Assembly: GCF_011764445.1 (NCBI RefSeq)
Contig: NZ_BLPG01000001.1
Span: forward strand, 7,953,001-8,017,000
Length of the DNA: 64,000 bases
Source: Phytohabitans rumicis
Lineage (GTDB): Bacteria > Actinomycetota > Actinomycetes > Mycobacteriales > Micromonosporaceae
Direction of reading: 5' to 3'
In this document: piece by piece, positions 49,532-64,000 of the stretch
Numbering within the stretch: position 1 is the first letter of the stretch
Layout: each line of letters begins with the position of its first letter
Program-made: the position numbers and the translations under genes
The notes under the pieces: model-generated
What the model was told of the DNA's origin: nothing
The model's database searches: none
What the model saw: only the letters and a program-made list of their open reading frames with translations

Positions 49532-49568
49532 CCCGCGGCGCGCGCCCCCGCCCTCGCTCTTGTCGCGC

Positions 49569-50160
49569 GTCGATCAAGGCTTTCCGCGTCGATCAAGGGC
49601 AAACGGTCGTGGATCGGAGATCAAAGCACGGCCGTTCGCCCTTGATCGGCGGGCGAGTCCTTGATCGGTGCGGCCCGCGCGCGGGTGGTGACGCTGGCGG
49701 GTCCGGCGGGGCTGGCGTGCCCTTGTGGCGCGTGGATCAAGGGTTTCCGCGTCGATCAAGGGCGAATGGTCGTGGATCGGAGATCGAAGCACGGCCGTTC
49801 GTCCTTGATCGGCGGGCGAGTCCTTGATCGGCGCGGCTCGCGCGGGGGTGGTGACGGCTGCGGGTCCGGCGGGGCTGGCGTGCCCTTGTGGCGCGTGGAT
49901 CAAGGGTTTCCGCGTCGATCAAGGGCGAATGGTCGTGGATCGGAGATCGAAGCACGGCCGTTCCTCCTTGATCGGCGAGAAGGTCCTTGATCGGCGCGGC
50001 TCGCGCGGGGGTGGTGACGGCTGCGGGTCCGGCGGGGCTGGCGTGCCCTTGTGGCGCGTGGATCAAGGGTTTCCGCGTCGATCAAGGGCAAACGGTCGTG
50101 GATCGGAGATCAAAGCACGGCCGTTCGCCCTTGATCGACGCAGAAAAGCCTTGATCGACG
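49569..50160. repeat. 163-bp tandem repeat of hairpin units
   Basis: Four hairpin-bearing copies with an exact 163-base period: TTTCCGCGTC recurs at 49581, 49744, 49907 and 50070. Each has a left arm GCGTCGATCAAGGGC..., a spacer GATCGGAGATC and a right arm around GCACGGCCGTT...CTTGATCGGC. Between hairpins is a conserved segment GGTCCGGCGGGGCTGGCG. Copies differ by a few substitutions. Open frames of 60-140 residues run through it on both strands but follow only the repeat. It is non-coding, between the M64 and TetR genes; related to the solo copy at 37331. Confidence 0.85.
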
Positions 50161-52318: not shown

Positions 52319-52846
52319 ATGTACGCGCCTGTCCCGGAGCTCAACCTGTTGATGGAGTTGCAGGACCGGCTCGGGTTCGAGAGTTATGCCGACGGATTCG
52401 GGCTCACCGAATTCGGCGACACCTCGGGCATCGAGGCGGGCTGGTCGAAGGACCCCGAGTTCGTCCGCGCCTTGGAGCCGTTCGCCCAGGCGAACGGCAG
52501 CGGATCCATGTACGCCCTCTGGCGTCTCGACGACCGGACCGACCTCGCCACGCTCCCGGTCGTCGTGTTCGGCGACGAGGGCGGGCAGCACGTCGTCGCC
52601 CGCGACCTTCGGGAGTTGCTTCAACTCCTGGGCTACGACTGCGAGATCTCCGTCGACTGGGACGAGGCGTACTTCTACCGCGGCGACGACCACGAGCACA
52701 CCGACGGGCACGAGGCGTACGTGGCGTGGCTGGACGAGCACTTCGGGCTGGCGCCCGCGGACGACCCGGAGGCCGTGGTCGAGGCGGCCCAGCACGAGTT
52801 CGGTGACCGGTTCGCGGCCTGGTACGGGCCCTACTTGCCGGACTGA
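52319..52846 (+). CDS. Hypothetical acidic protein, 175 residues
   Basis: ATG 52319 has GGAGAG four bases upstream; ATG 52307 is an alternative. An acidic soluble protein with 'LATLPVVVFGDEGGQHVVAR' and 'CEISVDWDEAYFYRGDDHEH', loosely like SUKH/SMI1-type immunity proteins, but I cannot confirm this. It overlaps the convergent LacI gene by 16 bases. Confidence 0.6.
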   Translation: MYAPVPELNLLMELQDRLGFESYADGFGLTEFGDTSGIEAGWSKDPEFVRALEPFAQANGSGSMYALWRLDDRTDLATLPVVVFGDEGGQHVVARDLRELLQLLGYDCEISVDWDEAYFYRGDDHEHTDGHEAYVAWLDEHFGLAPADDPEAVVEAAQHEFGDRFAAWYGPYLPD

Positions 52847-53868
52847 CCCCGGTCGCTGCTGCGGCGGACCACCAGATCGGGCGTGAAGACGACCTGGTGG
52901 TCCGGGGCCGGCGGCGCCTCACCGAGCACCCGGAGCAGCAGGTCGATGGCCGCGATCCCGAACTCCTCGTGCGGCGGTCGCACCGACGTGAGCGGGACGA
53001 GCGAGTTCTCCGCGTACTCGATGTCGTCATAGCCGACGACCGCGACGTCCTCCGGCACCCGGACCCCGCCGGTGACCAGGGTCTGCACCAGGCCGATGCC
53101 CAACAGGTCGTTGACCGCGAAGATGCCGTCCGGGCGCCGCCCCGCCGGGCGTCCGGTGAGCTCGGCGGCGACCTTGTGGCCGGTGGCGATGACCCGCGGC
53201 TCGGCCTCGATGACCTCCAGGGTGGCGGCGCCGCCGGACTCGCGGATCGCGTTGCTCGCGCCCTGCAACCGGTCGGCGACCTGCCGGATGCCCAGCGGCC
53301 CGCCGACGAACGCGATGTGCCGGCAGCCGATCTCGACGAGGTGGCGGGCGGCCTGGTACCCGCCGGACACGTCGTCGATGGACACCGACGGCTGGGCGGG
53401 CGTGCCGGCCCGCTGGCCGACCAGCACGGACGGGGTGCCCCGGCCCCGGATCGCGGCCAGCCGGGCCTCGATCGACCGCGGCGAGGCGACCAGCATGCCC
53501 CGGACCCCGTGCTCCTCGAAGAGGTCCAGGTACGAGTCCTCGCGCGCCTGGTCGCCGCCGGAGTTGGCGACGAACACCGACAGCCCGGCCTGCGCGGCGC
53601 GCTGCTCGACGCCCTCGGCGATGGTGGCGAAGAACGGGTTGCTCACGTCCGGGACGATGTACGCCACCGTCATGCTGTGGCCCAGCCGCAGCTGCCGGCC
53701 GGCGTTGTTGCGGACGAAGCCGAGCCGGTCGATGGCCTCCTGGATGCGCTTCGCCTTCTCCGCCGACACCCGGTCGGGGTGGTTGAGGAAGTGCGACACC
53801 GTGCCCATCGAGACGCCGGCCGCCGCGGCGACCTCCCGGATTCCTACCCTTGGCATCTCGGACCTCAT
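52831..53868 (-). CDS. LacI-family transcriptional regulator
   Basis: 345 residues. The HTH 'IREVAAAAGVSMGTVSHFLN' and hinge helix ('NNAGRQLRLG') precede a periplasmic-binding-like effector domain. Last gene of the operon from lerK-like to apnO-like. Start ATG 53868 or 53856. Three palindromes of the form TTGAAAC..TCAA at 58360, 60622 and 60732 are its probable operators, so it should control the whole apiose-type locus. Confidence 0.9.
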   Translation of the reverse strand: MRSEMPRVGIREVAAAAGVSMGTVSHFLNHPDRVSAEKAKRIQEAIDRLGFVRNNAGRQLRLGHSMTVAYIVPDVSNPFFATIAEGVEQRAAQAGLSVFVANSGGDQAREDSYLDLFEEHGVRGMLVASPRSIEARLAAIRGRGTPSVLVGQRAGTPAQPSVSIDDVSGGYQAARHLVEIGCRHIAFVGGPLGIRQVADRLQGASNAIRESGGAATLEVIEAEPRVIATGHKVAAELTGRPAGRRPDGIFAVNDLLGIGLVQTLVTGGVRVPEDVAVVGYDDIEYAENSLVPLTSVRPPHEEFGIAAIDLLLRVLGEAPPAPDHQVVFTPDLVVRRSSDRGQSGK

Positions 53869-53873
53869 ATTGA

Positions 53874-54716
53874 CTAGTAAACGTGCTGCAGCATCCGGGC
53901 GATGACCCGGTCCAGCTCCGTGTCGTCAAAGATCTTCTTCCAGTCCGGCCGGACGATCGTCTCGCGGCCGTAGTCCATCGCGATCCGGCACCCGTCCGAG
54001 AACGGGTTGGCGCCGCGCAGCGTGTTGCTCAGCGCCACCTGGATGTGCCCGTGCAGCATCGCGCGAGCGGCGGCCGACGGCACGCCGACCGTGTGCACGG
54101 CCTCGTGCAGCGCCTCGCGGAGCAGGTCGCCGACCATGCAGGCGACCGTCTCGACCAGGGTCGGCTCCAGCACCGCGAGCTGCTTGACGCTGACCCAGTG
54201 CACGTCCAGCACCGGGCCGTACATGACCCGGATGACCTCCTCGGCGACCGCCCTCTTGAGGTCCGGCCCCTCGAACGCCGCGACCACGTCCTGCGGCGCG
54301 GCCACGCCGCCGAAGCTGTCCGCGTACTCCTCCGGTGTGGTGCGCTCCAGGAACACCGAGGGGTGGCACGGGTGGGCGACCGCGTAGTGCACGTCGTCGC
54401 GCCGGTGCAGCACGCCCGCGTACGCGGCCGCCGGGTCCAGCGTGAGCACGATGGCGCCGGGCCGCAGCAGCGGGACGACGTCCGCCGACACCGCGGCGAG
54501 GGCGACGTCCGGCACCGCGAGGACCACGACATCCGCATCGGGTACGGCCGTACCCGTGTCGCTGAGCGTGCGACCCGCGGCCGTGACCCGCTCGCGGGCG
54601 GCCGGGGACGTCTCGCTGTAGCGCACGTCGTGGCTGGTGCGCGCCAGGTTGTCCGAGATCCGCATGCCCATCTTGCCGCCGGCGCCGACCACCGCGATGG
54701 TGCGTCGCTGCGTCAT
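53874..54716 (-). CDS. apnO: Putative D-apionate oxidoisomerase (ApnO-like)
   Basis: 280 residues with an NAD-binding Rossmann start 'IAVVGAGGKMGMRISDNLAR' and a phosphogluconate-dehydrogenase-like C-terminal half ('LEPTLVETVACMVGDLLREA'). This combination is typical of ApnO, which converts D-apionate to 3-oxo-isoapionate with NAD+. Also 'HYAVAHPCHPSVFLE'. ATG 54716 overlaps the OiaC-like gene stop. The symbol rests on fold plus an exact gene neighbourhood match to described apionate loci; not proven. Confidence 0.7.
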   Translation of the reverse strand: MTQRRTIAVVGAGGKMGMRISDNLARTSHDVRYSETSPAARERVTAAGRTLSDTGTAVPDADVVVLAVPDVALAAVSADVVPLLRPGAIVLTLDPAAAYAGVLHRRDDVHYAVAHPCHPSVFLERTTPEEYADSFGGVAAPQDVVAAFEGPDLKRAVAEEVIRVMYGPVLDVHWVSVKQLAVLEPTLVETVACMVGDLLREALHEAVHTVGVPSAAARAMLHGHIQVALSNTLRGANPFSDGCRIAMDYGRETIVRPDWKKIFDDTELDRVIARMLQHVY

Positions 54717-55465
54717 GCTCTCCTCCTCAGGTACGCCAGGTTGTGTGCGGTCCAGGTGCGCTCCAGCGCCACGGTGGCGGCCTCGTCGCCCTGCCAGGGC
54801 AGCCAGTGCTCGATGATCTGGCTGATCCCGCGCTCAGCGGGCCGGACCCGGGCGAAGAGCCGGTCCAGGTCGAGCTGGCCCTCGCCGAGCGGGCAGCCGG
54901 CCAGCCGGAAGCCGACCCAGCCCTCGTCCCGGGTGAAGGCGAAGTCCTTGACGTGCAGGTTCACCACGTGCGCGGCGGTCACGTCGACCACCCGGTCGGG
55001 GTGATCCAGCGCGGCCACGCCGTTGGCCGGGTCGAGGCAGATGCCGAGGTTCGGGTGCCCGACCCGCTCGACGAGCGCGACGAGGTCGGCGGCCGGCACC
55101 TTCTCGTACGTCTCCAGCGCGATCGTCACGCCGGCCGCCGCGTACCGGGGGAGGACCTCGGTGAGCTCCTCATCGGCCGCGGGCCCCGTCACCATCGTGC
55201 GCACCAGCCGCGCGCCGAGCCGTTCGGCGATCCCCAGGTACGCGTCGAGGTGGGCGACGGCGGTGCCCCGGGTGCCGAGTTCGAGGGCGACCCCGCCGGC
55301 GAGCGCCCGGGCGGCGAGCGCGTCCAGCCGGGCCGCGTCGAAGTCGGCCACCGCCGGGTGGTCGCAGATCTGGAACGCGTCCGCGCCCAGCTCGATCGTC
55401 CGGTCGAGCATGTCCTCGACGGTGAGCGGCTCCCAGAAGAACGCGTACGTGCTGAGCCCGATCAC
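54713..55465 (-). CDS. oiaC: Putative 3-oxo-isoapionate decarboxylase (OiaC-like TIM barrel)
   Basis: 250 residues of the xylose-isomerase-like TIM barrel superfamily. Likely metal ligands: Glu in 'VTIALETYEKVP', Asp in 'NLGICLDPANGVAALDHPD', His in 'HVVNLHVKDFAFTRDEG', Glu in 'ISQIIEHWLPWQG'. In the described non-phosphorylative apionate route, OiaC decarboxylates 3-oxo-isoapionate to L-erythrulose. GTG 55465 overlaps the TIM-like gene stop. The assignment depends on neighbours; a sugar-phosphate isomerase/epimerase is the alternative. Confidence 0.65.
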   Translation of the reverse strand: MIGLSTYAFFWEPLTVEDMLDRTIELGADAFQICDHPAVADFDAARLDALAARALAGGVALELGTRGTAVAHLDAYLGIAERLGARLVRTMVTGPAADEELTEVLPRYAAAGVTIALETYEKVPAADLVALVERVGHPNLGICLDPANGVAALDHPDRVVDVTAAHVVNLHVKDFAFTRDEGWVGFRLAGCPLGEGQLDLDRLFARVRPAERGISQIIEHWLPWQGDEAATVALERTWTAHNLAYLRRRA

Positions 55466-56174
55466 GGCGCCGCCTCGTCCAGGACATCGGCGAGCGCGGC
55501 CGGGTCGTGCGCGAACCTACCGAGGAACAGCCCGTCGACCGCGCCGCGTAGCCGGGTCAGCAGGCCCGGTCCGGCGCTGCCGCCGTAGACGACCGGGCTG
55601 TCGGGGACGCGCGCGCGCAGCGCATCGCACACCGCCGCGATGTGGTCCACGCCGGCCGGCTCGGCCGCGCCGATCGCCCACACCGGCTCGTACGCGACGA
55701 CCACGGGGCGGGATCCGTTGACCCGAGCGCCGCGTCGAGTTGGCGCACGCACTCCTTCGCCGCCGCCGGCCCCGGGTGCGCCTCGCCCACGCAGATCACC
55801 GGGGTCAGCCCGGTGCGCAGGGCCGCCGCCGTCTTGCGCGCCACCACGGCGTCGTCCTCGCCGAAGAGGCGGCGCCGCTCGGCGTGCCCCACGACGGCGT
55901 ACCGGCAGCCGAGCGCGGCCAGGTCGGCGCCGCTGACCGCGCCCGTGTACGGCCCCCGCTCGGCCCAGAACAGGTCCTGCGCCCCCACCGCGAGCGCCGA
56001 ACCGCGTACCCGCTCGGCGACCAGCGGCAAGGCGGGCAGGCTCGGCGCGACCCACAGCCGTACCCGGCCGGCGACCCACGGCCGGTCGGCGAGCAGTGCC
56101 AGCACCCGTTCACACCAGTCCAGAGTGGACGGTATGTCGAGATACAGCTTCAGGCTGACCCCGATCGTCAGCAT
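55462..56174 (-). CDS. lerI: TIM-like L-erythrulose-1-phosphate isomerase (LerI/EryH-like), frameshifted
   Basis: About 237 residues of triosephosphate isomerase fold: '[13 protein letters not shown]' (His95 motif with Ala for the usual Ser), '[17 protein letters not shown]' (catalytic Glu) and '[12 protein letters not shown]'. The N-terminal 'SLKLYL' has Ser where TIM has Asn, which fits tetrulose-phosphate isomerases better than a glycolytic enzyme. The frame breaks at the C run (top strand) 55722-55724. It overlaps both neighbouring genes. Expected: L-erythrulose-1-P to D-erythrulose-4-P. Confidence 0.75.
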
Positions 56175-56635
56175 CGCGCCTCCGTGTCGTACCCGTCGAT
56201 GACCCGCACCTTCTCCGCGGACGGCGACGTGGCGTCGAAGCGGTGGCCGAGCCATTCGCGGGCCAGGCGCCGGGCCAGCTCCAGGCCGACCACCCGCTGC
56301 CCGAGCGCGAGCACCTGTGCGTTGTTGCTGAGCACCGCGCGCTCCACCGAGTACGAGTCGTGCGCCGTCACCGCCCGCACGCCGCGCACCTTGTTCGCCG
56401 CGATCGCCACCCCCAGGCCGGTGCCGCACACCAGCAGCGCCCGGTCGGCCTGCCCGGCCGCGATCAGCTGCGCGGCGGCGACCGCGATGTGCGGGTAGGC
56501 GGTGCGCCCGTCCGCGGCAACGCCAACGTCCACAACGGACTCAACCAGGTCGCTCGACTCCAGGTCCCGCTTGAGGACCTCCTTGTAGTCGTACCCGGCG
56601 TCGTCGGAGCCGACGACGATTCGCCACCCGCTCAT
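56168..56635 (-). CDS. derI: RpiB-like D-erythrulose-4-phosphate isomerase (DerI/EryI-like)
   Basis: 155 residues of the RpiB/LacA/LacB family: '[20 protein letters not shown]', catalytic Cys in '[19 protein letters not shown]', and '[17 protein letters not shown]'. RpiB paralogues beside a DhaK-type kinase and a TIM paralogue convert D-erythrulose-4-phosphate to D-erythrose-4-phosphate. ATG 56635 overlaps the kinase stop by four bases. Confidence 0.78.
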
Positions 56636-58344
56636 GCGTTTGCCTCCATTACTGAGCGCAGGATCAGGGCCAGCGACGTCGCGCCGGCGTCCGGGGTGCC
56701 GCGGCTGCGTTCGCCGTGCGGCCGCGCCCGGCCTCGTTTCGGTAGCAGATCCGCGGTCGACCGGGCGGCGTGCTCGGCCACCGGCACCGCAGCCGCCAGC
56801 GCGGCACGGGCGCCCTCGGACGCCGCCGCCCGAAACGCGTCCCGGAACGGCACCAGCACGTCCACCATCGTCTTGTCGCCGACCTTCGCGCCGCCGGCGG
56901 CCACCACCGCGGCCACGGCCGCGTCGACGGCGGCGGCCAGCGCGGCCGCGTCCGGCTCGGCGCGGTCGCCCACGCTCTCGCCGAACGCGCGCAGGGCCAC
57001 ACCCCACAGCGCGCCCGAGGTGCCGCCGGCGCGGTCGGCCCAGGCGTCCCCGGCGTGCCGCAGCGCGGTGCCGGTGCCGCCGCCCGCCGCGACCACGCGG
57101 CCGGCGGCGTCGAGCGCCGCGTGCGCCCCGCGCCGCATGCCGATGCCGTGGTCGCCGTCGCCGGCCACCGCGTCCAGCCGGCCGAGCTCGTCCGCGTGCG
57201 CGTCGACCGTCAAAACCGCCGCGGCCAACGCGTCCCGCACGGCCGCGGCGCCGCGCCGGCTGCCATCGGGTGCCACCTTGATGATCTGAGTACGCCCAGC
57301 GGGCTCGCCGGTTGGTCGCTCGCTGGCGGGCGGGGTGGCGCCGCCCTTGCGGTACGCGGGCGTGCTCGCCCCGGCGTGCCACAGCCGTTCCAGCTCCTCG
57401 TCCAGCCAGCACAGGGTGAGCGAGACGCCGGCCATGTCGAGGCTGGTGACCAGCTCGCCGACCTCCGGCTCGACCACCGCCACGCCGGCCGCCTCCAACC
57501 GGTCGGCGACCGCGCCGTACAGGACGAACAGCTCCTCGTACTTGACCGAGCCGAGTCCATTGAGGACGGCGACCGCTCGCGCGCCCCGGGCCGCCGGCAG
57601 GTCGTCGGGCAGCTCGGCCAGCAGCGGGTCGACGAGCCGGCCGGCCAGCTCCCGCGCGGTCGGCACGTCCGTCTCGTCGATGCCCGGCTCGCCGTGGATG
57701 CCCATGCCGACCGCCATCCGTCCACTAGGGACGGTGAAGAGTGGCTCGCCGGCGCCGGGCAGGGTGCACCCGCCGAAGGCCACGCCGAGCGTGCGGGTGC
57801 GGTCGTTGGCCCGCCGCGCGATCCGCGCCACCTCGTCCAGCGGGCGGCCCTCGGCACTCGCGGCGCCGGCCGCCTTGTAGACCACCAGCCCGCCGGCGAT
57901 GCCGCGGCGCAGGTCCCGCCGGTCCGGGGGAGCGCTGGAGATGTCGTCGGTGACGAGGACGGTCTCGCAGGGTATGCCCTCGGCGCGCAGCCGCGCCTGG
58001 GCCTGGTCGAAGTGGAGCACGTCGCCGGCGTAGTTGCCGTAGGAGAGCAGCACTCCGCGGCCCCGCTGGGCGGCCATGGCGACGGCGTACACCTGCTGGG
58101 CCGACGGCGAGGCGAAGAGGTTGCCCATCGCCGCGCCGTGCGCGAGCCCGGGGCCGACCAGGCCGGCGAACGCGGGGTAGTGGCCGGACCCGCCGCCGAT
58201 GACGAGCGCGACCTGGGATGCCTCCTCGGCGGTGCGGCGCACCACCCCGCCCGAACTGCGCCGGACCCACGGCGCGAACGCCCGCGCGAACCCGGCCGCG
58301 GACTCGTCAGCGAAGCGGGTCGGGTCGTTCGCCAGGTGGGTCAC
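56632..58344 (-). CDS. lerK: DhaKL-type L-erythrulose kinase (LerK-like)
   Basis: 570 residues: DhaK domain (about 1-330) with the substrate-binding His in '[14 protein letters not shown]', and DhaL ATP domain (about 375-570) with metal Asps in '[16 protein letters not shown]' and '[14 protein letters not shown]'. A single-chain ATP-dependent kinase for dihydroxyacetone-like ketoses; with the TIM- and RpiB-like genes, L-erythrulose is the likely substrate. GTG 58344 has GGAGG upstream. First gene of the six-gene operon, behind a LacI-type operator. Confidence 0.8.
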
Positions 58345-58359
58345 CAGGGCACCTCCGTA

Positions 58360-58375
58360 CTTGAAACGTGTCAAG
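58360..58375. promoter_or_regulatory. LacI operator 1 (kinase / SMP-30 divergent)
   Basis: CTTGA / AACGTG / TCAAG, an inverted repeat between the divergent kinase operon and SMP-30 gene. It shares TTGAAACnnnTCAA with the 60622 and 60732 sites. Confidence 0.7.
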
Positions 58376-58405
58376 CATAGCAGGACCCCTGTCATACTTG
58401 GCTAC

Positions 58406-59319
58406 ATGCTGAAGCTGGTGGCTGCCAGGGCTGAGCTTGAAACGTTGTACAGCGGGACGCGGTGGGGCGAAGGCCCGGTGTGGCTGCCGGCGACCGGGCG
58501 CCTGCGGTGGAGCGACATCCCCAACGACCGGATCCTGGAGTACGCGCCGGACACCGGCCAGACGTCCGTCTACCGCGCCCCGGCCGGCTTCGCCAACGGC
58601 CGCACCCTGGACCACGCCGGCGCGGTGGTGCAATGCTCACACGGCCGGCGGGCGGTCGAACGCGACACCGGCGCCGCCGCGACCACCATCGTCGACGCGT
58701 GGGACGGCAAGCGGCTCAACTCGCCGAACGACGTCGTGGTCGCCGCCGACGGCGCGATCTGGTTCACCGACCCGCCGTACGGCATCCTCTCCGACAAGCA
58801 GGGCCACGTCGCCGAGCCGGAGTACGACGGCTGCTACGTCTTCCGGTACGACGAGCGGACCGGCCGGATCGCGCCGATGGTGACCGACATGGTCCACCCC
58901 AACGGGCTCGCCTTCGCCCCCGACGGCCGCACCCTGTACGTGTCGGACACCTCGGTCCTGCACCGCCCCGACGGCCACCACCACATCCGCGCCTACGACG
59001 TGGTCGCCGGGAAGTGTTCGCGCGGCCGGGTGTTCGCCGAGATCGACCCCGGCTGCCCGGACGGCTTCCGCGTCGACGGCGCGGGCCGCCTCTGGACGTC
59101 GAGCGCGGACTCCGTCCAAGTCCTAACCCAGACGGCGCCCAGGTAGCCCGCATCCCCGTCCCCGAACCCGTCTCCAACCTCTGCTTCGCCCCCGGTTACC
59201 TCTACATAACGGCGGCAACCTCCCTCTACCGCCTCCCCCTCGGGGTTGGGTGTGAACCGCGCAGGGTGAGGCCGCGGGAGCAACGGCCCGCACCGCGACG
59301 GACATCGCGGCAGCCCTGA
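58406..59319 (+). CDS. SMP-30/gluconolactonase-family protein, frameshifted
   Basis: About 300 residues of the SMP-30 beta-propeller: metal Glu in 'RWGEGPVWLPATGRL', Asn in 'LNSPNDVVVAADGAIWFTD' and 'MVHPNGLAFAPDGRTLYVSD'. It would hydrolyse a sugar lactone, here plausibly apionolactone. A base is missing near 59121-59128; restoring it gives SVQVL-NPDGAQVARIPVPE. The C-terminal tail after about 59245 (GCEPRRVRPREQ...) is encoded by the inverted copy of the 60-bp repeat, so the native end was probably altered by that repeat. Divergent from the kinase operon. Confidence 0.8.
59258..59314. repeat. CTAG-linked intergenic repeat, copy 4 (inverted)
   Basis: Reverse complement of the core seen at 16604, 23659 and 27121 (GGCTGCCGCGATGTCCG... 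to CCTCACCCTGCGCG), followed by CTAG at 59324-59327. It overlaps the 3' end of the SMP-30 frame and adjoins the hairpin at 59327. Confidence 0.65.
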
Positions 59320-59326
59320 ATATCTA

Positions 59327-59391
59327 GCGGTGATCATGGAGTTAGCTGCGTGGGAGAGCGCTCTCAGTGCTGCTAACTCCATGATCACCGC
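59327..59391. repeat. 20-bp perfect inverted repeat with palindromic loop
   Basis: GCGGTGATCATGGAGTTAGC (59327-59346) and its exact complement (59372-59391) flank a 25-base loop that contains GAGAGCGCTCTC (59354-59365), itself a perfect palindrome. It may act as terminator for the SMP-30 gene or be a mobile repeat. The loop palindrome also resembles LacI-family cellulase operators. Confidence 0.75.
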
Positions 59392-59444
59392 GTGGGTGAC
59401 CCGGGGGCGCGGGGCGGGGAGAGGGAGGGGGAGGGGTCAGGGGG

Positions 59445-59837
59445 CTAGGGGCGGGGGATTTCGGCGCCGCACTCGATCAAGGTGTCGGTTACCACGCGGA
59501 TGGCGTTGAGGGCGCGGGGGAAGCCGGCGTATTGGACCACGTGGATGACGGTTTCTAGGATTTCGGTGGGGGTTAGGCCGGCGTTCAGGGCGCCTCTGGT
59601 GTGGCCGCGCAGTTGGGGCTCCAGGCCACCGAGCGCGACCAGGGCGCCGAGCGTGATCATCTCGCGTTGGGCCAGCGTGAGGCCCGGGCGCGAGTAGATG
59701 TCGCCGAAGTTGAACTCGATGCCGTAGCGCGCCAGATCCTGGGCGAGGCCGGTCTGCATGGCGATCAGACCGTCCGCCTTTCCCGCGCCGTACAGCTCCT
59801 CGAACTTGCGCTTGCCCTGCTCCAGCCTGTCTGTCAC
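59445..59837 (-). CDS. Carboxymuconolactone decarboxylase-family protein
   Basis: 130 residues of CMD type, without CxxC: 'YSRPGLTLAQREMITLGALV' and 'HTRGALNAGLTPTEILETVI' carry the conserved core. Start GTG 59837 with AGGGG upstream, 7 bases after the SDR stop, so an operon. Members include true decarboxylases and lactone-acting enzymes; reaction here unknown. Its stop is a TAG inside CTAG. Confidence 0.8.
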   Translation of the reverse strand: MTDRLEQGKRKFEELYGAGKADGLIAMQTGLAQDLARYGIEFNFGDIYSRPGLTLAQREMITLGALVALGGLEPQLRGHTRGALNAGLTPTEILETVIHVVQYAGFPRALNAIRVVTDTLIECGAEIPRP

Positions 59838-59846
59838 GGATACCCC

Positions 59847-60599
59847 TCAGATCGAATGCCCGCCGTCGAGCGGCAGGACGACACCGGTGATGTTGACGGC
59901 GGCGGGCGAGGCCAGGAACACGACCGCCTCGGCCAGGTGGTCCGGCTCGCCGAGCAGCCGGGTCGGGATCTGGGCGAGCAGCGCCTCCCGGCGTTCCGGC
60001 GTGTCCCGGTCCCGGCCGGGCGTGGCCTGCGCGCCGGGGGCCAGGCAGTTGACCGTGACGCGCTGCTCGGCCACCTCGATGGCGAGCGCCTTGGTCAGGC
60101 CGACCACGCCCGCCTTGGCGGCCGCGTACGCGGTGGCGCCGCGGACCAGCCGGCCGCCGGCGATGGCGGCGACCGAGGCGATGTTGACGATCCGCCCGTG
60201 CCGCTGGGCCAGCATCGACGGCAGGGCGGCCCGGGTGACGTTGAAGACGGTGGTGAGGTTGCGGTTGACCTGGGTCGTCCAGGTCTCGTAGCTCATCTCG
60301 TGGAAGAACTGCACCGCGCCGCCGCCCGCGCCGTTGACCAGGATGTCGACGGCGCCCCACTCGTCGGCGACGCGACCGACGGCGGCCTGGACGGCCGCGA
60401 AGTCGGTGAGGTCGACCGGCTCGGCCAGCGCGTCGACGCCGTGCCCGCGGACCCGCTCGGCGACCGCGGCGAGGCCGTCGGCGTTCAGGTCGAGTCCGGC
60501 GACCCGGGCGCCCGCGGCGGCCAGGTGCTCGGCGATGACGGTGCCCAGGGCGCCCGCGGCGCCGGTGACGATGGCTCGGTTGCCCGACAGAGAGATCAC
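59847..60599 (-). CDS. Short-chain dehydrogenase/reductase
   Basis: 250 residues: cofactor motif 'IVTGAAGALGTVIAEHLA', NAG-like 'ILVNGAGGGAVQF', Ser in 'RIVNIASVAAIAGG' and YxxxK in 'ATAYAAAKAGVVGL'. Asp after strand 2 ('VAGLDLNADG') favours NAD(H). Start GTG 60599. First gene of a two-gene unit behind LacI operator 2, so it probably oxidises a sugar, sugar acid or tetrulose in the same pathway. Confidence 0.88.
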   Translation of the reverse strand: MISLSGNRAIVTGAAGALGTVIAEHLAAAGARVAGLDLNADGLAAVAERVRGHGVDALAEPVDLTDFAAVQAAVGRVADEWGAVDILVNGAGGGAVQFFHEMSYETWTTQVNRNLTTVFNVTRAALPSMLAQRHGRIVNIASVAAIAGGRLVRGATAYAAAKAGVVGLTKALAIEVAEQRVTVNCLAPGAQATPGRDRDTPERREALLAQIPTRLLGEPDHLAEAVVFLASPAAVNITGVVLPLDGGHSI

Positions 60600-60621
60600 C
60601 TCGCCATTGTTCGGTCGTTAC

Positions 60622-60635
60622 TTGAAACCTGTCAA
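60622..60635. promoter_or_regulatory. LacI operator 2 (upstream of SDR)
   Basis: TTGAAACCTGTCAA, matching the 58361 site in 12 of 14 positions. It is 22 bases upstream of the SDR start. Confidence 0.65.
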
Positions 60636-60731
60636 ACGCCGGCCATTGTTACGCGGGCTCGCCGAGACTGCGGAGTAGCCTCTGGACATGTGAGATCCTT
60701 GACAGTCCGTCGGTCGCCGGTCTAGCCTCCC

Positions 60732-60749
60732 CTTTGAAACGCTTCAAAG
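60732..60749. promoter_or_regulatory. LacI operator 3 (upstream of ABC operon)
   Basis: CTTTGAAACGCTTCAAAG, a near-perfect 18-base palindrome (7-base arms CTTTGAA/TTCAAAG), 27 bases before the binding-protein start; the best-formed of the three sites. Confidence 0.75.
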
Positions 60750-60776
60750 TCCCGCCGCGCTTCACGAGGAGGAAAT

Positions 60777-62095
60777 GTGTCGGTTGCAATGACAGGGCGC
60801 CGCGGCTGGGCCCTGCGGCTGACGGCCGCAGCGGGGGCGGCGCTGGTGCTGGCCGGGTGTGCGTCGGACGGCGGTTCCGGGAGCGGTGGCTCCACGCCGG
60901 ACAAGTTCACCCTGCTGACCCCGGCCGAAAACGCGATCATCCGCAACGAGCTGACCACGCTGTCCAAGAACGCGTGCGGCACGGCCGAGCAGGCTCTGCC
61001 GCTCAATAGTGAGACCGTCGCACAGTCCGACGTCGTCCAGAAGATCACGCTCCTGGCCAGCCAGGACGCCCTGCCGGTGATGTTCGTGGCCGGCACCGCC
61101 CAGGTGAAGCCGACCGGCGACCTGGGCAAGGGCAAGCTGATCGTCGACTACGAGCAGACGCTCAAGGACCTCGGCGTCTGGGACGACATCCTGCCCGCCG
61201 CCGCGTCGACCGTGAAGTCGGCGTACGGCTCCATGGCGTCCCTGCCGTTCCAGTACAACATCGAAGGCATCTTCTACAACAAGAAGCTCTTCGCCGACCA
61301 CGGTGTCACCGCGCCGCAGACCTGGGACGACCTGGTCAAGGCGGCGCAGACCCTCAAGGCCGCCGGCGTGGTGCCGATCACCGAGGCCGGCAGCCAGGGC
61401 TGGCCCATCACCCGGCTGATCGGCATGTACATCTTCCGCAGCCTCGGCCCGGACGCGCTGACCGCCGTCAAGAACGGCCAGGCCAAGCTCACCGATCCGC
61501 AGTACGTGGCGGCCGCCAAGGCCGTCGCCGACCTGGGCGCCGCCGGGTACTTCGGCGAGGGCGTCACCTCCCGCAGCACCGACGCGGCGAACGCCCAGTT
61601 CCTCAACGGGCAGGCGGCCATGATGTACAACGGCTCCTGGTTCCTGGCCAACCTCAACGACCCGAAGCAGAACAAGGTCGGTGCGGAGAACGTCGGGTTC
61701 ATCCCGTTCCCGACGGTGGCGGGCGGCAAGGGCGACAGCGGCCAGTGGCCGGCGAACGCCGGTGCGGCGACCGCGCTGTCCACCAAGGCGTACGGGCCGA
61801 AGGTCGGCGACTGGCTGAAGTGCGTCGCCGAGAACTACGGCAGCAGCGTCATGCAGAATCAGGGCGTGATCTCCGGCTTCAAGCTGAACCAGCCGGTCAG
61901 CAACGTCCCCCGCTCACCAAGCAGCTGCAGGAAATCGTGAGCCAGGCCAGAGCGACGGTGCTGTGGTTCGAGGCGCTCTTCGACGCGAAGACGACCTCGG
62001 ACGCGCAGACCAACGTGGCCCTGCTGCTCACCGGCAAGGTATCGCCGGACAAGTACATGGCCACGCTCCAGGCCGACCTGGACCAGGCGCGCTGA
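60777..62095 (+). CDS. Sugar ABC transporter substrate-binding lipoprotein, frameshifted
   Basis: About 439 residues. Signal with lipobox LAGC ('LTAAAGAALVLAGCASDG'). SBP family 1 body: 'FQYNIEGIFYNKKLFADHGV' and 'GQAAMMYNGSWFLANLNDPK'. The frame breaks in the C run 61907-61911; adding one C joins 'QPVSNVPP' to 'LTKQLQEIVSQARATVLWFE'. GTG 60777 has AGGAGGAAAT directly upstream. Captures the branched sugar or sugar acid used by the LacI-controlled locus; specificity inferred from context. Confidence 0.87.
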
Positions 62096-62108
62096 GGGAA
62101 GGACCACG

Positions 62109-62993
62109 TTGCACAGCGTCCTGGGTGACAAGAAGGCCGTACTGATCCTTCTCGGTCCCGCGCTGCTCGTCTACACGCTCGTCAAGCTGGTGCCGGTGTT
62201 CTGGTCGTTGGGTTTGACCTTCTACACCGGTAACCCGCTTGGCGGGTTCGAGTTCGTCGGACTGGACAACTTCAGCCGGTTCATCGCCGACCCGCAGGCG
62301 CGGTCGGCGCTGTGGTTCACGCTGAAGTACGCGTTCGTGCTGTCGGTCGGCCAGATCGTGCTGGGGTACGCGCTGGCCCTGTTGTACGTCTTCGTGCTCC
62401 GGCGGGCGTCGAACTTCGTGCGTACCGTCGTGTTCTTCCCGACCGTGCTGCCCACGGTCGCGGTCGCGCTGCTGTTCAACAGCCTGTTCGCGACCGGGCA
62501 GCAGCAGGGACCGGTGAACGCGGGGCTGGAGGCGGCCGGACTGTCCTCGGTGGACTGGTTCTCCACCGGCGGCGGCACGTTCGTGGTCGCCATCGTGATG
62601 GAGCTGTGGCGGTCCATGGGCTTCTTCGCCGTCCTGCTCTACGCCGGCCTCCTCGACATCCCGGAGGAGACCCTGGAGGCGGCCAGGATCGAGGGCGCGA
62701 CCGGATGGCGGCTGGTACGCCACGTGGTCCTGCCGCTGTCCCTGCCGATCCTGCTGTCCACGGTCATCTTCAGCGTGAACAACACGCTGAAGGTCTTCGA
62801 CACCCTGCTGGCCCTCAACAACGGCGGGCCGGGCGGGGAGACCACGCCGCTGACGCTCTACATGTACCGCACCGTGTTCAACTACGCCGACTACGGATAC
62901 GGCAGCACGATCGCGCTCGTCCTGACCATCATGTGCCTGATGGTGACGCTCGTCGTGTTCCGGTCGGCCCGACGCGACATCACGGGGTCCTGA
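62109..62993 (+). CDS. Carbohydrate ABC transporter permease (CUT1, MalF-like)
   Basis: 294 residues, six spans, coupling loop 'EETLEAARIEGATGWRLVRH'. Start TTG 62109 with GGAAGGA upstream; no better ATG/GTG fits the family length. Coupled to the next permease gene (TGATG overlap). Confidence 0.88.
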   Translation: MHSVLGDKKAVLILLGPALLVYTLVKLVPVFWSLGLTFYTGNPLGGFEFVGLDNFSRFIADPQARSALWFTLKYAFVLSVGQIVLGYALALLYVFVLRRASNFVRTVVFFPTVLPTVAVALLFNSLFATGQQQGPVNAGLEAAGLSSVDWFSTGGGTFVVAIVMELWRSMGFFAVLLYAGLLDIPEETLEAARIEGATGWRLVRHVVLPLSLPILLSTVIFSVNNTLKVFDTLLALNNGGPGGETTPLTLYMYRTVFNYADYGYGSTIALVLTIMCLMVTLVVFRSARRDITGS

Positions 62994-63820
62994 TGAGGTT
63001 TCTGCGCCGTCTGCCGCTGCGCATCGGCCTCACCCTGCTGGTGGCCGTCGAGCTGTATCCGTTGGTGTGGCTGGTGCTCGGCTCGTTCAAGACGCAGGAC
63101 GAGTTCTTCTCCAAGCCGACCTGGGCGCTGCCCGAACAGCTGGACTTCCACAACTACACCGAGGCGTGGGCGGCCGGCGGCCTGGGGCGCAACGTGCTCA
63201 ACAGCGTGCTGGTGACCGTGCCGGCGCTCGTCCTCATGATCGCGCTCGGCGTCGCCGCCGCGTACGCGCTGGAAGTGATGGTGTGGCGCGGGCGCAACGC
63301 GGTCCTGCTCGCCTTCCTGGCCGGCATCATGATCCCGGGCCAGATGATCCTGGTGCCGCTGTTCACGGTGTACTTCGAGATCGGCCTGACCAACACGCTG
63401 TGGCCGCTCATCATCACGTACACCGTGATGGGCCTGCCGCTGACCGTGTTCCTGATGGCCGCGTACCTGCGGGCCATCCCGCGCGAGGTCTTCGAGTCGG
63501 CCACCGTGGACGGTGCCGGGATGCTGCGCTCGTTCTTCCGGATCGCCGTGCCGATGATGCGCAACGCCATCGTCACCATCGCGCTGGTCGAGTTCTTCAG
63601 CGTGTGGAACGACCTGCTCATCGCGCTCACCTTCACCACCCGGGACGAGCTGGCGACCGTCCAGGTGGGGCTGTTGCAGTTCAGCGACGAGTACGGATCG
63701 ACCCAGTACGGGCCGCTGTTCGCCGCCATCAGCATCAACGTCCTGGGTATCCTCGTGCTGTACCTGTTCCTGAACAAGCAGATCATGGCGGGCCTAGCGG
63801 CGGGGTCGGTGAAGGGATGA
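62993..63820 (+). CDS. Carbohydrate ABC transporter permease (CUT1, MalG-like)
   Basis: 275 residues, six spans, coupling loop 'FESATVDGAGMLRSFFRIAV'. ATG 62993 overlaps the preceding stop. Intact, ending SVKG-stop, and its stop overlaps the ATG of the next gene. Confidence 0.9.
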   Translation: MRFLRRLPLRIGLTLLVAVELYPLVWLVLGSFKTQDEFFSKPTWALPEQLDFHNYTEAWAAGGLGRNVLNSVLVTVPALVLMIALGVAAAYALEVMVWRGRNAVLLAFLAGIMIPGQMILVPLFTVYFEIGLTNTLWPLIITYTVMGLPLTVFLMAAYLRAIPREVFESATVDGAGMLRSFFRIAVPMMRNAIVTIALVEFFSVWNDLLIALTFTTRDELATVQVGLLQFSDEYGSTQYGPLFAAISINVLGILVLYLFLNKQIMAGLAAGSVKG

Positions 63821-64000
63821 GGCCGGTCACCATCGGCACGTCCGGGTTGGACAGTGTGGACCTCGCGCTCGCGATCCTCCGTTCGCCGTACGGCCAGGTC
63901 GACACGTCCAACGCGTACGCGCGGGGGCGCAGCGAGGCGGTGCTCGGCGAGGCGCTCCGTGCGGTCGGGGCGGGCACCGTCATCTTCTCCAAGGCCGACG
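63817..64000 (+). CDS. Aldo/keto reductase, N-terminal part (cut by window end)
   Basis: 61 residues visible: 'QVDTSNAYARGRSEAVLGEA' contains the catalytic Asp and Tyr of the aldo/keto reductase fold (DxxxxYG-like), and the N-terminus 'PVTIGTSGLDSVDLAL' fits aldose dehydrogenases. It is fourth in the ABC operon and probably oxidises the imported aldose to its lactone, the substrate of the SMP-30 protein. The gene continues beyond 64000. Confidence 0.75.
   Translation, partial: MRPVTIGTSGLDSVDLALAILRSPYGQVDTSNAYARGRSEAVLGEALRAVGAGTVIFSKAD

Follow-up and report, generated by a model that had tools for sequence, protein, structure and literature searches.

A probable LacI-controlled regulon for an apiose-containing plant glycan or glycoside in Phytohabitans rumicis

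In this work, we analyzed a gene cluster at the end of a 64,000-nucleotide stretch of the Phytohabitans rumicis genome (the window; bases 7,953,001-8,017,000 of contig NZ_BLPG01000001.1, in a genome of 10.7 Mb) and followed it beyond the window end into 16 kb of the same contig, read from 8,016,000 on (L004). Judging from its sequence, the cluster is probably a LacI-controlled regulon for the catabolism of a plant glycan or glycoside with D-apiose, L-rhamnose, and probably D-galactose. Besides the lacI gene, it comprises a five-gene core, LerK-DerI-LerI-OiaC-ApnO, which is very likely the D-apionate route, and a front end with an SMP-30-family protein, a carboxymuconolactone-decarboxylase-family (CMD) protein, an SDR oxidoreductase, a CUT1 importer, an aldo/keto reductase (AKR), and further genes past the window. 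The core is known; the front end is the unusual part. The genes named in an initial annotation of the window (those for LacI, ApnO, OiaC, TIM, RpiB, DhaKL, SMP-30, SDR, CMD, CUT1, and AKR) are all present, and family scans agree with their naming. If our reading holds, the cluster would link glycan import and cutting to a sugar-acid pathway that is known but obscure, supply candidate enzymes for a second type of apiose dehydrogenase and lactonase, and place the little-understood PF09370 and UPF0261 proteins in a defined, testable regulon.

The core had been assigned to the ApnO-OiaC-LerK-LerI-DerI route at the outset, and profile scans, trees, and conserved residues all put its genes in the right families and the right order. 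ApnO belongs to the PF16896 family, with an NAD-binding N-terminus and the conserved HPCHP region, OiaC is an AP_endonuc_2-fold gene adjoining it, and LerK, LerI, and DerI are present at the family level in profile scans and tblastn. (LerI, frameshifted in this assembly, was represented by its first piece in profile scans and by the Erwinia gene as a stand-in elsewhere; SMP-30 and the CUT1 binding protein were represented in searches by their first, pre-frameshift pieces.) The solved structures nearest to ApnO are 5t57 and 3c24, and the PDB search gave only distant matches for OiaC; no NCBIfam model reaches its cut-off for either protein, and DerI scores above the RPI_actino cut-off and below that of the Rhizobium DerI model NF051858 in the same collection. 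Window residues kept in at least 97% of rows number 49 in ApnO (49 rows) and 50 in OiaC (42 rows, one aberrant row, L062, being left out of the count), and the latter include E118, D145, H171, and E219, which we take to be likely metal ligands.

The window ApnO is 61-62% identical to the ApnO that stands beside OiaC in Kushneria and Erwinia. Erwinia E602 and Pantoea At-9b are the best plasmid relatives; there, ApnO is 63% and OiaC 49% identical, the two standing side by side in an operon of the order MFS-LerK-LerI-OiaC-ApnO. OiaC is 56-58% identical to that of Kushneria and Salinicola loci carrying ApsD and ApnL, and it is the presence of a window-type ApnO-OiaC pair within the same 21-kb loci as ApsD (52-53%) and ApnL that ties this pair to apiose. 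The ApnO proteins of Pararhizobium and Paracoccus are 43-45% identical to that of the window and lie in OiaX-type loci, near OiaX, a kinase, and a CUT2 importer. A Gfo/Idh/MocA dehydrogenase and a hypothetical protein are also there; judged by gene position and by what is reported of the pathway, we take these two to be ApsD and ApnL. The initial annotation had held that a placement of ApnO and OiaC outside their families would tell against its reading. In a quick tree of 49 ApnO rows, the five with OiaK or OiaX neighbors are split from the other 44 with a support of 100, long branches being flagged there, and the window ApnO stands apart from these five and groups with its three cluster-mates (support 99). 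In the OiaC tree, the row of genome G095 is set apart on a long branch. D-apiose catabolism via ApsD-ApnL-ApnO-OiaC-LerK-LerI-DerI was reportedly described by Carter et al. in 2018. In an excerpt of PMC11747546, a strain growing on D-apiose has ApsD, ApnL, ApnO, OiaK, and OiaX in one gene cluster.

In actinobacteria the core is commonplace, as a rule accompanied by an MFS carrier, and is not new. Using samples of 200 genomes of the family and 396 of the phylum (P. rumicis itself is counted in both), we found ApnO at E 1e-20 in 12 and 7 genomes, respectively, and three of the seven phylum genomes hold the 38-39% kind, adjoining OiaK. A single scan across genome contigs yielded 72 named loci, some of them cut by contig ends: all five core genes are present in 56 (three of these of the front-end kind), an MFS carrier (at least 60%) in 56, an ApnL-like gene in 22, and ApsD (at least 45%) in 2. 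The cluster had been proposed as an undescribed actinobacterial variant, a description that suits its unusual front end but not so common a core.

Following the core, SMP-30, CMD, SDR, CUT1, and AKR recur with order and orientation unchanged in Phytohabitans maris, Dactylosporangium sp. AC04546, and Plantactinospora mayteni, where the shared run continues through GH2, an epimerase-like protein, PF09370, UPF0261, and GH78. Because it is kept in three other genomes, this arrangement goes beyond chance. Together with P. rumicis, G055, and G075, these make up six full front ends, and with the partial variant of G095, seven front-end genomes. As a marker for the front end we used the epimerase-like protein with an identity of at least 70% (next best, 56%; at E 1e-60 it matches in 111 of 200 genomes). 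This marker occurs in 7 of the 200 family genomes, all 7 among the 12 with ApnO; the chance of this overlap is 3.5e-10 (hypergeometric), or 5.8e-9 without P. rumicis itself, assuming independent genomes. In titles and abstract openings of the open-licence literature, among the matches listed, no front end of such a kind is described.

Partial versions also occur. The G095 cluster holds the core, SMP-30, CMD, SDR, the epimerase-like protein, GH78, and a more distant CUT1 importer, with no match to AKR, GH2, PF09370, or UPF0261 in the 35 kb read. Jiangella endophytica has, up to a contig end, GH78, the epimerase-like protein, SMP-30, LacI, and ApnO, and an Acidimicrobiaceae metagenome-assembled genome (L047) has ApnO, CUT1, UPF0261, and PF09370, with no OiaC in view in either. 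Near CUT1 and ApnO in two distant actinobacteria, we also noted a protein of 467 residues (L029:16659-18062, in G095) or 468 residues (L047:8573-9979), the former with no Pfam match and the latter with no PDB match, possibly a glycosidase of a new sort.

The clusters of G055 and G075 carry the whole front end with LacI and DerI; ApnO, OiaC, LerI, and LerK are without a match in these front-end loci, and a complete MFS-type core lies on another contig (L031 and L030). The DerI of the clusters is 80-82% identical to that of P. rumicis, and the DerI of their MFS-type core is 70-71% identical. Given these identities and the same core order in MFS-type operons, a four-gene loss around DerI is more parsimonious than insertions to either side of it, and we infer that these clusters lost ApnO, OiaC, LerI, and LerK. 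That core genes would be gone from the cluster where a second core exists is a genetic argument for what the front end makes.

One LacI-type repressor apparently switches the core together with the importer, oxidizing, and glycan-cutting genes. Scanned with at most one mismatch, the palindrome TTGAAACNNNTCAA has five rows (three places) in the window, where shuffled sequence yields 0.10; of its five exact matches in the genome, three are in the window. Genome-wide, allowing one mismatch, there are 25 rows, 7 of them (5 places) in the cluster, and 16 rows for the backward control. In the window, LerK, SMP-30, SDR, and the binding protein start 13 to 31 bases away from the three sites; two further operator-like sites lie between UPF0261 and GH78. 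Each of the six full front ends has all five, at corresponding promoters. Across the ten front-end loci we counted 35 places in 198 kb (overlapping loci being counted twice), and in the other fetched loci of at least 5 kb, 6 in 1.67 Mb; the palindrome is absent from the seven scanned ApnO loci outside the front-end group and from L047. A LacI orthologue, 75-87% identical, sits inside the cluster in all five relatives with a full front end.

The GH2, epimerase-like, cupin, PF09370, UPF0261, and GH78 genes past the window make an apiose-containing glycan, rather than free apiose, the likely food. Neither GH78 nor GH2 (whose start codon is unsure) has a hydrophobic N-terminus, unlike the binding protein and the pectate lyase and pectinesterase encoded after GH78, so that the oligosaccharide is probably imported before it is cut. 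The nearest solved structure to GH78 is 6gsz, an alpha-L-rhamnosidase, presumably the Aspergillus terreus enzyme acting on flavonoids. We propose that the CUT1 importer would bring in the oligosaccharide, which GH78 and GH2 would cleave in the cytoplasm; D-apiose would then be oxidized at C1 by the SDR or the AKR (less likely by the epimerase-like protein), and the SMP-30 protein would open the lactone to D-apionate. ApnO and OiaC would convert D-apionate to L-erythrulose, and LerK, LerI, and DerI would lead on to D-erythrose 4-phosphate. We consider a narrower version less likely: a dedicated system for plant glycosides with the branched trisaccharide apiosyl-[rhamnosyl]-galactose, in which the SDR or AKR with SMP-30 would replace the non-orthologous ApsD and ApnL, one of the uncharacterized genes would encode an apiosidase, and the PF09370 and UPF0261 proteins would be catabolic. 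According to excerpts of PMC8701318 and PMC6479591, plants produce flavonols that bear apiosyl-(1-2)-[rhamnosyl-(1-6)]-galactose. Their breakdown would draw on GH78, GH2, and the entire core, yet it needs an apiosidase, which was not found here.

The UPF0261 protein has matches to Tm-1 of tomato and to a bacterial UPF0261 structure. Tm-1 is a plant virus-resistance protein, and the TIM-barrel domain of Tm-1-like proteins is, we presume, PF09370. Plant Tm-1-like proteins join UPF0261 and TIM-barrel domains, as stated in an excerpt of PMC5028733. In the regulon, the PF09370 and UPF0261 genes stand side by side near operator-like sites (L004:6146-8192).

The initial annotation had proposed that the usual ApsD and ApnL may be replaced here, and no orthologue of either was found in the five genomes searched: ApsD gave only generic 24-32% matches of a large family, and the Pararhizobium ApnL query matched in none of the five, no positive genome being among them as a control. 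With an actinobacterial ApnL as query, the gene itself was recovered in G073 and there was no match in G000 or G121, a weak control in that the hit is the query. In tblastn against the named loci, the Pararhizobium ApnL, which has no Pfam match, does pick up ApnL-like genes of actinobacteria. For the lactone step, SMP-30 is the only lactonase-family protein recognized in the cluster, CMD set aside. An SDR lies within 1500 bases in 13 of 23 ApnL loci (the 22 among the 72 named, plus L025); at 30-35% identity, we rejected these as orthologues of the window SDR.

That SMP-30, the AKR, and the ABC importer belong with the core is borne out by synteny and by operator-like sites shared with it; the AKR as a settled replacement of ApsD we rejected, since it is absent from G095, its presence follows that of GH2, and it has relatives outside such clusters. 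The AKR is found at E 1e-40 in 45 of 200 genomes and keeps its catalytic residues, by the motif of its family, in six sequences. G095 lacks it and keeps the core, SMP-30, SDR, CMD, the epimerase-like protein, and GH78; AKR and GH2 are present or absent together across the seven front-end genomes. In five genomes read, AKR relatives of 56-68% sit away from any such cluster, another of 71% is found in G018 with no such cluster around it, and the front end is in none of nine AKR surroundings from genomes without ApnO. The five surroundings read (four from one genus) show no consistent sugar neighbor and do not indicate a substrate; a probable secreted glycosidase is nearby in L161, and a CUT2 importer lies about 3 kb away in L167. 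With the AKR absent from G095 and also present at 71% in G018, we rate SDR and AKR about equal as candidates for the apiose dehydrogenase, the epimerase-like protein being less likely. A parallel to such front-end variation is offered by an E. coli apiose cluster that, in an excerpt of PMC13001218, is without the Pectobacterium isomerase gene and has two putative oxidoreductases instead.

The same genes could also serve other sugars. The core might handle apionate while the SDR, AKR, and SMP-30 oxidize rhamnose or galactose freed by GH78 and GH2, apiose or apionate being reached by another route. Both hydrolases are in the same cluster, GH78 having operator-like sites of its own, AKR goes together with GH2, the nearest PDB entries to AKR are L-galactose dehydrogenases (best matches, 4e-21), and the gene count exceeds the needs of apiose. 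This arrangement, however, leaves no apiose dehydrogenase or lactonase, ApsD and ApnL not being found, and no aldonate dehydratase or aldolase is recognized in the cluster, unless the PF09370/UPF0261 pair is one. Rhamnose, moreover, needs no new route: the model TIGR02632 for the phosphorylative rhamnose aldolase/dehydrogenase is matched above its cut-off, elsewhere in the genome, in all seven genomes asked. We rejected rhamnose as what mainly explains the SDR and SMP-30. On balance, we regard oxidation of other sugars by the front end as rather unlikely.

Pectin was considered as another source. In degradation of rhamnogalacturonan II (RG-II), an outside apiosidase would free the side chains and the importer would take up rhamnosyl-apiose pieces. 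RG-II holds apiose, rhamnose, and galactose, as given in an excerpt of PMC12168206, and in P. rumicis the GH78 gene is followed on the plus strand by genes for a pectate lyase, a pectinesterase, and a fumarylacetoacetate-hydrolase-family protein. These lie at L004:10973-15087, with a ricin-type lectin domain in each of the first two; the CDtoxinA Pfam match of the pectinesterase is weak (26 bits), overlaps this lectin domain, and was dismissed. In P. maris, Dactylosporangium, and Plantactinospora, none of the three genes has a match in the 4.4-6.3 kb read past GH78. The apiosidase domain PF13204 is found in 14 of 200 genomes and in one of the seven front-end genomes (G075). With no match to the pectin genes in the stretches read past GH78 in these three relatives and no apiosidase domain in its own genome, we rejected RG-II as the preferred food of the P. 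rumicis system, a reading we consider improbable.

LerK, LerI, and DerI are also tetritol genes, and in Mycolicibacterium L-erythrulose is made from tetritols by an SDR. The three could on that model serve erythritol or threitol, with the window SDR supplying L-erythrulose, and one GolD/DthD-like NCBIfam model, below its cut-off and among the 25 of 214 matches listed, does match the SDR. ApnO and OiaC, however, are part of this overlapping operon and retain the residues conserved in their families, and the lactonase, GH2, and GH78 have no place in tetritol use, which we rejected on these grounds as very improbable.

Several points weigh against a regulon for an apiose-containing glycan: (i) none of the cluster genes was identified as an apiosidase, and the P. 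rumicis genome has no PF13204 match; (ii) the PF09370, UPF0261, cupin, and epimerase-like genes of the regulon are unneeded by an apiose route; (iii) the likeness of the AKR to L-galactose dehydrogenases is distant, and the SDR is FabG-like; (iv) the ApnO of G095 and that of Jiangella fall among MFS-type rows, apart from the four linked clusters, so that more than one ApnO lineage is accompanied by a front end; (v) operator-like sites are missing from the MFS-type core operons of G055 and G075, and core and front end are therefore not co-regulated there; (vi) the co-occurrence counts share ancestry (four genera) and are weaker than the computed chance; and (vii) the LerI, SMP-30, and CUT1 binding protein genes of the P. 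rumicis assembly each carry a one-base frameshift. These last three genes (window 55462-56175, 58406-59270, and 60777-62095) lie within 7 kb, the rest of the cluster being intact. LerI appears as two tblastn pieces in different frames; full-length frames are found in relatives for SMP-30 (six of six), the binding protein (six of six), and LerI (all four relatives having it). The frameshifts are either long-read sequencing indels or recent lesions, that is, decay.

The features of the cluster within the window are listed in Table 1. The core genes overlap, as the initial annotation had noted, and only they, with lacI, share one overlapping or nearly overlapping operon, on the minus strand; its extension to a single operon was rejected, strand and spacing giving four units, core with lacI (-), SMP-30 (+), SDR-CMD (-), and CUT1-AKR (+). 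SMP-30 is transcribed from the opposite side of the LerK promoter region. Of the genes of this complete-looking locus, three are frameshifted, AKR is cut by the window end (641 further bases are in L004), and the cluster continues about 10 kb past the window, up to the end of the GH78 gene. There, AKR is followed by GH2 (+), then by the epimerase-like gene, two cupins, PF09370, and UPF0261 (-), and then by GH78 (+). Orthologues of the SDR (73-86% identical) and, adjoining it, of CMD (79-95%) are found in six of six relatives, and those of CUT1 permeases 1 (79-91%) and 2 (77-89%) in all five with a full front end. The hairpin between SMP-30 and CMD is probably a two-way terminator; its exact arm sequence is found only in 4 of 197 fetched loci, all four covering the same place. 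Outside the cluster, the window holds a tandem array at 49559-50137 (163-base unit, 3.6 copies, 94% matches).

Table 1. Cluster features within the window (window coordinates)
Feature	Position	Strand	Basis
LacI-family repressor, last core-operon gene	52831..53868	-	Pfam LacI + Peripla_BP_3
ApnO-like, putative D-apionate oxidoisomerase	53874..54716	-	PF16896, 200 bits
OiaC-like, putative 3-oxo-isoapionate decarboxylase	54713..55465	-	AP_endonuc_2, 69 bits
LerI-like triosephosphate-isomerase-family gene, frameshift near 55725	55462..56175	-	Pfam TIM on first piece
DerI-like RpiB-family isomerase	56168..56635	-	LacAB_rpiB
LerK-like dihydroxyacetone-kinase-family kinase (DhaK+DhaL)	56632..58347	-	Dak1 + Dak2; NF011049, 719 bits
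LacI-operator-like palindrome between LerK and SMP-30	58361..58374	.	Palindrome scan
SMP-30/gluconolactonase-family lactonase, frameshift near 3' end	58406..59146	+	PF08450, 127 bits; PDB 3dr2, 3e5z
Strong hairpin between convergent SMP-30 and CMD genes	59325..59392	.	Exact 18-base inverted repeat; z = -9.4
CMD-family protein	59445..59837	-	PF02627, 73 bits
SDR oxidoreductase, candidate apiose dehydrogenase	59847..60599	-	adh_short; FabG-like in PDB search
LacI-operator-like palindrome before SDR-CMD	60622..60635	.	Palindrome scan
LacI-operator-like palindrome before CUT1 genes	60734..60747	.	Palindrome scan
CUT1 solute-binding lipoprotein, frameshift near 61910	60777..62095	+	SBP_bac_1
CUT1 permease 1	62109..62993	+	BPD_transp_1
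CUT1 permease 2	62993..63820	+	BPD_transp_1
AKR, 5' part	63817..64000	+	Aldo_ket_red; best PDB matches L-galactose dehydrogenases

Among known systems, those of Bacteroides for RG-II, which use a GH140 apiosidase, have in common with the P. rumicis cluster apiose from a plant glycan; here, in contrast, the genome has no PF13204 match and the hydrolases look cytoplasmic. The OiaK/OiaX (RuBisCO-like) branch of Pararhizobium and Paracoccus shares the ApnO family and differs in its CUT2 importer, CUT1 being found here, and in the step for which OiaC is present instead; neither OiaX nor OiaK has a tblastn match in the window, L004, or L005 at E 1e-10. MFS-LerK-DerI-LerI-OiaC-ApnO operons are known from Arthrobacter, Frigoribacterium, and some Micromonosporaceae, with similar ones in Erwinia and Pantoea: they have the core genes, in the same core order in the actinobacterial ones, with ApnO 59-73% identical in the MFS-type loci compared, but an MFS carrier in place of CUT1 and, in the seven ApnO loci scanned outside the front-end group, no palindrome. 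Downstream of the ApnO operon of Pantoea At-9b (L007:14628-21823) are an ABC importer, an annotated SMP-30 protein holding a permease domain, and an annotated CMD gene, the last without a tblastn match to the window CMD. With the ApsD-ApnL-ApnO-OiaC-LerK-LerI-DerI route, finally, the cluster shares the ApnO, OiaC, LerK, LerI, and DerI families; where that route has ApsD and ApnL, of which no orthologue is found in the genomes searched, SMP-30, SDR, AKR, CUT1, GH2/GH78, and LacI are clustered with the core.

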